Below, piece after piece: positions 47,906 through 52,323 of a stretch of DNA of 64,000 nucleotides. Positions within the stretch are counted from its first letter, which is position 1, and every line of letters starts with the position of its first letter. Made by a program: the position numbers and the translations under genes. The DNA is from Nanobdellati archaeon. GTDB lineage: Archaea; EX4484-52; GLR71. The DNA is taken from NCBI GenBank assembly GCA_019429005.1, contig JAHYJR010000005.1, forward strand, positions 54,581-118,580, written 5' to 3'. The notes under the pieces are model-generated. The model was given only the letters and a program-made list of their open reading frames with translations. It did no database searches and was not told the origin of the DNA.

Positions 47906-48073
47906 GCCCTGATGGCTCAGTTGGTTAGAGTACTGCCTTGGTACGTCCGTGAAATCCGGCGTCGCTTTGAGTGATAGTTAAAATTTCGTTTTGAAGTCAC
48001 TCTGTAATTATTTATGCGTCGGGTTTGTGGCACAAAAAGGCAGAGATCGCGTGTTCGAATCTCGCTCAGGGCT
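47906..48073 (+). tRNA. tRNA-Thr(GGT) with ~94-nt intron at 37/38 (intron ~47944-48037)
   Basis: Acceptor GCCCTGA/TCAGGGC, anticodon stem CTGCC/GGCAG, loop TTGGTA|A, T-arm GCGTGTTCGAATCTCGC, discriminator T. Confidence 0.88.
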
Positions 48074-50937: not shown

Positions 50938-51059
50938 CCCGCTGTAGCTCAACCTGGTAGAGCACTCGGCTGTAGATTAGCACGTTTTTAAGTGTTTTTC
51001 ATTTAGTCTCTGCTCAGATAGTAACCGAGGTGTTGCCTGTTCAAATCAGGCCAGCGGGA
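50938..51059 (+). tRNA. tRNA-Tyr(GTA) with 48-nt intron at 37/38 (50976-51023)
   Basis: Acceptor CCCGCTG/CAGCGGG, anticodon stem CTCGG/CCGAG, loop CTGTAG|A, T-arm GCCTGTTCAAATCAGGC; BHB central helix CTGT/ATAG. Confidence 0.92.
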
Positions 51060-51775: not shown

Positions 51776-51889
51776 GTTGACGGTCACAGCGAGAATGGTA
51801 CACCCGAACCCATCCCGAACTCGGAAGTTAAGATTCTCAGCGACCTGTGTTGTACTGCTTTTTTGTGGGAAGCTCATGACGCTGTCAAC
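51776..51889 (+). rRNA. 5S ribosomal RNA
   Basis: CCCGAACCCATCCCGAACTCGGAAGTTAAG core; terminal stem GTTGAC.../...GTCAAC; TATA-like TTTATAAAG ~25 nt upstream. Confidence 0.93.
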
Positions 51890-51913
51890 ATATTTATAAT
51901 TATATAAAAATGT

Positions 51914-52049
51914 GTCCTGGTAGTGTAGTTGGCCTATCATTCAAGACTGTCACTCTTGTAACCCGGGTTCAAATTGTATGAAATAATCTATTTTTAATAA
52001 ATTTAACACTTATTGATTGGTTTCAGACATGAAAATCCCGGCCAGGACG
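51914..52049 (+). tRNA. tRNA-Asp(GTC) with 62-nt T-loop intron at 59/60 (51974-52035)
   Basis: Acceptor GTCCTGG/CCAGGAC, anticodon arm CAAGA CTGTCAC TCTTG, split T-arm CCGGG TTCAAA|...|T CCCGG; discriminator G. Confidence 0.92.
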
Positions 52050-52174: not shown

Positions 52175-52323
52175 GGGCCTGTAGCTCAGTCTGGCAGAGC
52201 ACTGGACTCTTAATCCAGGTGTCGAGGGTTCAAAAAGGTAAATGTTATCATACAATGTTGTTTTAATTATTATGTAATTATAACTTTGTTATGCATTTGC
52301 TCTTGGAAATCCCTTCAGGCTCA
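52175..52323 (+). tRNA. tRNA-Lys(CTT) with 75-nt T-loop intron at 59/60 (52235-52309)
   Basis: Acceptor GGGCCTG/CAGGCTC, anticodon arm CTGGA CTCTTAA TCCAG, split T-arm GAGGG TTCAAA|...|T CCCTT. Confidence 0.92.

Follow-up and report, generated by a model that had tools for sequence, protein, structure and literature searches.

A probable T-loop BHB intron in tRNA-Asp of a DPANN archaeon, and a sole detected splicing endonuclease without the triad lysine

Non-canonical BHB introns interrupt tRNA genes in Crenarchaeota (especially Thermoproteales), Nanoarchaeota, Thaumarchaeota and the Asgard Atabeyarchaeia and Freyarchaeia. Position 59/60, in the T-loop, is among the non-canonical positions listed for archaeal tRNA introns (PMC4090602). 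Such introns have been tied to splicing endonucleases (EndA) that possess either an additional subunit or a specialised loop (PMC4090602, PMC6379350, PMC12397907) and associated with enzymes of the (alpha-beta)2 or epsilon2 type (PMC4090602, PMC6379350), and the alpha4 EndA has been described as restricted to canonical introns (PMC4033280). The four EndA types are said to share a conserved Tyr-His-Lys triad (PMC6379350) and, in the ARMAN-2 enzyme, alanine at any triad residue abolished cleavage (PMC12397907). As for intron origins, transposition was proposed for Thermoproteales (Fujishima 2010, in the form cited in PMC4033280). A search of mainly open-access literature found nothing on point about tRNA introns of DPANN archaea or Nanohaloarchaeota.

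Here we analyse a 64,000-nt stretch of archaeal DNA (the window) from a MAG of 1.08 Mb, 15 contigs and 93.6% completeness. The closest relatives of its RNA polymerase B' (68% identity) belong to MAGs named Nanohaloarchaea, Aenigmatarchaeota or DPANN, which places the host as a DPANN archaeon near Nanohaloarchaeota. At 51914-52049, on the + strand, lies a tRNA-Asp(GUC) gene whose T-loop is interrupted at 59/60 by a 62-nt intron, so that the T-arm reads CCGGG-TTCAAA^(62 nt)^T-CCCGG. A preliminary description had proposed a T-loop intron with a clean BHB at this place, and its account is correct to the base and in every pairing detail. In fact, the motif is a strict 3-4-3 BHB, in which the central helix TTCA/TGAA forms all four of its pairs between two 3-nt AA^T bulges and the inner helix TGTATG/CAGACA carries a single A.G mismatch. 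With the BHB pairs enforced, T-arm and intron fold at -16.1 kcal/mol, within 0.1 of the MFE (-16.2). Excision restores a complete standard tRNA, with the predicted junction ...GGGTTCAAA-TCCCGG..., and ARAGORN calls the spliced 74-nt product tRNA-Asp(gtc); the standard T-loop and G73 that the description had read hold as well. The description had also warned that plain searches could miss the gene, and they do: ARAGORN reports 0 tRNAs in the window, and Rfam at gathering threshold omits the locus, whose unspliced sequence reaches 17.1 bits where 29 are required. Very likely, then, the locus is a real and functional tRNA gene carrying a BHB intron in its T-loop. We put at a little under nine in ten the probability of a working tRNA-Asp(GUC) gene, present in single copy, with a BHB intron between nucleotides 59 and 60, whose splicing we infer from the sequence.

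Table 1. Features of the tRNA-Asp locus, its neighbours and the splicing endonuclease gene (window positions unless another locus is named).
Feature	Position	Strand	Support or detail
5S rRNA, directly upstream of tRNA-Asp	51776..51890	+	Rfam RF00001, 75.8 bits
tRNA-Asp(GUC) exon 1, positions 1-59, 3' end TTCAAA	51914..51973	+	sequence, chance test
tRNA-Asp T-loop (59/60) intron, 62 nt	51974..52035	+	ARAGORN recognises tRNA-Asp after excision; single copy in genome
BHB 5' splice site: TTCA helix, bulge AA^T, inner helix TGTATG	51968..51980	+	
BHB 3' splice site: inner helix CAGACA, TGAA helix, bulge AA^T	52024..52036	+	offset test
tRNA-Asp exon 2, T60 to G73	52036..52049	+	
tRNA-Lys(CUU) exon 1, starts 126 nt downstream of tRNA-Asp	52175..52234	+	
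tRNA-Lys intron, 75 nt, T-loop 59/60	52235..52309	+	central helix TTCA/TGGA, 4 pairs, one G.U
tRNA-Lys exon 2	52310..52323	+	
tRNA-Tyr(GUA), canonical anticodon-loop intron	50938..51059	+	RF00005, 51.9 bits; anticodon by eye
tRNA-Thr(GGU), canonical 37/38 intron	47906..48073	+	RF00005, 46.8 bits; anticodon by eye
Sole EndA gene, 187 aa	L119 1474-2037 (G000:C11)	-	PF01974 and PF02778 searches

How easily could such an arrangement arise by chance? When the real 5' half of tRNA-Asp was kept fixed and the 250 nt downstream were shuffled (n = 200,000), a matching 3' half appeared in 2/200,000 cases and a 3' half together with the BHB helix in 0/200,000. A scan of 20 shuffled windows likewise found 0 interrupted tRNAs, against two (Asp and Lys) in the real window. 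A pseudogene broken by an insertion would be scored as defective by tools built for uninterrupted tRNAs, as this locus is; but neither exon shows damage, the 7 bp of the acceptor stem and the 5 bp of the T-stem all match, and the interruption is kept in independent MAGs, where the interiors have diverged and the splice-site helix stays constant. Moreover, neither the Rfam tRNA model nor an interrupted-tRNA covariance model found another tRNA-Asp in the whole 93.6%-complete genome, the missing part of which could hold an intact copy; a second intact tRNA-Asp(GTC), together with a lack of spliced reads, is what the preliminary description had named as evidence against a working gene. We regard a pseudogene as highly improbable. 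Still less credible is an assembly chimera or contamination of the MAG at this locus: the genome is a draft in 15 contigs, but 5S rRNA, tRNA-Asp and tRNA-Lys are followed by the genes for RNA polymerase H, B'' and B' (names assigned by inspection), all on the + strand, and the 5S-Asp-Lys group beside RNA polymerase genes, T-loop introns included, recurs in independently assembled relatives. In addition, five genes on three contigs share the T-loop-intron architecture. Thus, the relatives' orthologues, the genome search, the fold and spliced product and the shuffles led us to reject pseudogene, assembly error and chance, and to retain the reading of a working interrupted gene.

The T-loop intron of tRNA-Lys(CUU), 126 nt further on, had been overlooked. 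The genome holds five T-loop introns, in Asp, Lys(CUU), Gly(UCC), Glu(UUC) and Ala(UGC) tRNAs; they are mutually unrelated and single-copy, and a search of the genome gave no repeat copies of any of them beyond weak AT-rich matches. tRNA-Glu(UUC), at L116 (-) 33-307, is interrupted twice, in the anticodon loop and, by a 161-nt intron, in the T-loop. tRNA-Ala(UGC) adjoins the 16S rRNA gene and was retained as a T-loop intron gene with an irregular splice helix (1/4 pairs at the standard register). The anticodon-loop intron of tRNA-Tyr belongs to the same processing pathway as the T-loop introns. Two tRNA-Leu-like genes, on L114 (-) and L118 (-), show an apparent D-loop interruption.

T-loop introns are widespread in the order. 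A first scan, which made no assumption about intron sequence, found them in Asp tRNAs of L033, L035 and L042 and Lys tRNAs of L032 and L035, finds that did not depend on a TGAA ending; the three orthologous Asp introns have diverged in their interior and kept the TTGAAAA^T end. A search with model R1, whose hits were parsed, yielded 80 T-loop introns in 24/34 genomes of the order, a survey biased towards introns ending in TGAA, on which R1 was trained. They fall in eleven isotypes (Asp, Lys, Glu, Gly, Arg, Ser, His, Pro, Thr, Ala and Tyr) and, within the same bias, 59/60 dominates the non-canonical introns seen in the order. At the BHB register 66/80 introns form all four pairs of the central helix, compared with 0-3/80 at other offsets, and six contiguous inner-helix pairs stand directly behind the bulge in 25/80 (0.4 expected). 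Changes at position 57 are partly matched by changes in its partner (A-T in 61, G-C in 3, G-T in 2); of the seven introns with G at position 57, five have C or T opposite it. Intronless orthologues occur at the same locus, for Lys at L042 3452-3525 and for Asp at L039 507-578 and L074 653-724; thus, introns are gained and lost at precisely 59/60. Genomes outside the order have T-loop introns too, for example G039, G037, G044 and G059, and in G039 they coexist with an open reading frame of 387 aa that contains two EndA domains.

A sister genus, g3, is represented by seven MAGs. Its Lys, Glu, Gly, Ser, Arg and His tRNAs contain 24 T-loop introns that are alike in sequence and make up a single family, about 102 nt long, with some members truncated (loci include L209, L206, L200 and L205). 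The structure of this repeat covaries, 10/22 pairs showing double changes, and it has no Rfam match. A model built from it finds 48 copies, all within g3, several of which lie outside tRNA genes, intergenic or in low-complexity stretches (L310-L314, L317, L318, L320); the same model finds none in the window's own genome. The g3 element looks like a dispersed repeat turned T-loop intron many times, a proposal that can be tested and that resembles the transposition put forward for Thermoproteales introns (Fujishima 2010, as cited in PMC4033280). Three intron copies (L203, L214, L210) have the 5' hairpin duplicated in tandem, which suggests growth by inserting one hairpin into another.

That some g3 introns are structured and covarying could be taken to mean that the tRNA-Asp intron, too, is kept for an RNA function of its own, as a guide RNA or regulatory element. 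Yet this intron has no Rfam match and no repeat copy, and its interior is unlike between genomes, and we find such a function improbable. A separate observation concerns the anticodon-loop introns of tRNA-Lys(CUU) in the relatives L037, L038, L040, L041, L095 and L036, which are strongly conserved (GAGGGTGAAGCTTTTAACCAGACGG). Unlike ordinary drifting introns, these are perhaps guide RNAs.

Which enzyme would cut the tRNA-Asp intron? The preliminary description held that an endonuclease tolerant of non-canonical sites is needed. The junctions form a strict BHB, so an enzyme of strict specificity might in principle be enough and relaxed specificity need not be required. It had also advised identifying the enzyme type, and one EndA was indeed found, composed of a single N and a single C domain (both Pfam domains present); it is of neither the (alpha-beta)2 nor the epsilon2 type, being of alpha4 size without the triad lysine. 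Searches of the genome with PF01974 and PF02778 gave no second EndA gene. A second subunit could sit in the part missing from the 93.6%-complete assembly, which is unlikely since every order genome with a PF01974 hit shows a single match, and each of the 27 read has one EndA of alpha4 size. The best solved relatives are the M. jannaschii alpha4 enzyme (1a79, E 1e-24, the closest) and that of ARMAN-2 (4fz2). In size (about 170-190 aa for alpha4) and in its Tyr and His the protein agrees with alpha4 enzymes, the triad Lys being absent, and the 187-aa gene encodes neither a separate structural subunit nor a fused multi-unit protein.

In fact, Ala164 aligns with the triad lysine, K287 in A. fulgidus and K282 in ARMAN-2, and this site is Ala or Ser in 27/27 EndA sequences of the order. 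All 27 also have an insertion, G[VI]NPYKxGxK, between Tyr116 and His133 (GVNPYKGGSK in the window's genome). Outside the order, G050 likewise has Ala at the site and a loop keeping K128 and not K124; others in the alignment retain the triad Lys. We had considered the insertion as a CSL or ASL and dropped this identification: its position matches the ARMAN-2 I243-E248 loop. The alignment shows no CSL-like insertion; at the ASL site the difference amounts to a few residues, too small for a reading from sequence alone. The 0.6-Mb archaeal genome G059 has two adjacent EndA-like genes (L336 155-667 and 664-1215). Each has Ala where the triad lysine would be, and the first apparently also lacks the catalytic His.

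Splicing of tRNA-Asp by this EndA is likely. Tyr116, His133 and the sequence around them are strictly kept in the aligned proteins, which argues for catalysis. A lysine of the loop may, we infer, stand in for the missing one of the triad. The ARMAN-2 result, that alanine at the triad lysine abolishes activity (PMC12397907), means that the enzyme here might be weak or need another factor. The intron could then be real and cut by something else, be it a subunit that escaped detection, an enzyme supplied by the host or a different nuclease, with the K-less EndA inactive or structural. Every EndA read in the order is without the triad lysine, and DPANN cells are generally host-dependent, both of which fit such an outside activity; against it stand the strict conservation of Tyr116/His133 and their surroundings, the single gene returned by the PF01974 and PF02778 searches, and the presence of RtcB (584 bits). 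On balance we hold another cutting enzyme to be unlikely and favour EndA.

We envision the following sequence of events. The pre-tRNA-Asp would form a strict BHB at its exon-intron junctions, the one EndA of the genome would cut both bulges, and RtcB would join the exons, releasing the intron. The T-loop cannot close before splicing, so the steps that read the T-arm should follow it: T-loop modification, elbow formation and probably tRNase Z cleavage and CCA addition. Much less certainly than it would cut, EndA may act as an alpha4-type homotetramer, in which loop lysine K124, or the better-conserved K128, near Tyr116 and His133, could take over the role lost at Ala164. Wider still, and more doubtful than not, is the combined idea that this lineage swapped the triad lysine of EndA for a loop lysine and that its tRNA genes accept mobile structured RNAs, such as the g3 repeat, as T-loop introns.

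An order rich in T-loop introns with an alpha4-size EndA devoid of the triad lysine offers a direct test case for EndA catalysis, and also for the co-evolution of intron position and enzyme type. The g3 repeat family lends itself well to studying how transposition may add introns to tRNA genes. There is a practical side as well: essential tRNAs of such genomes escape standard searches, and their MAGs may score as incomplete.

How, then, does this system compare with those already described? Position 59/60 being among the listed non-canonical positions (PMC4090602), the tRNA-Asp intron is of a known kind and adds one more example; what is new is the set of T-loop introns combined with a single-gene EndA that lacks the triad lysine. 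As in other non-canonical systems, a BHB forms at the junctions and one gene can hold several introns (Glu here). In Thermoproteales too, similar introns are repeated in different tRNAs of one lineage (Fujishima 2010, cited in PMC4033280 and PMC4090602). The preliminary description's link to Thermoproteales stands as an analogy; as kinship it falls, the organism being DPANN. Unlike the known systems, these introns occur in a Nanohaloarchaeota-like DPANN order and against the background of a single alpha4-size EndA. With the epsilon2 EndA of ARMAN-2 (4fz2, 9w2k), the enzyme shares a DPANN origin, in an archaeon with non-canonical introns, and a Tyr-His loop longer than in M. jannaschii (the I243-E248 region of ARMAN-2). 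The ARMAN-2 protein, however, is a fusion of three units that keeps the triad lysine K282 and has Y160/K161 in another loop, whereas here a single 187-aa unit has Ala in place of K282 and no recognisable CSL. With the alpha4 EndA of M. jannaschii (1a79) it has in common one short type of subunit, from which it differs by a 7-residue insertion between Tyr and His and by the replacement of the triad lysine.
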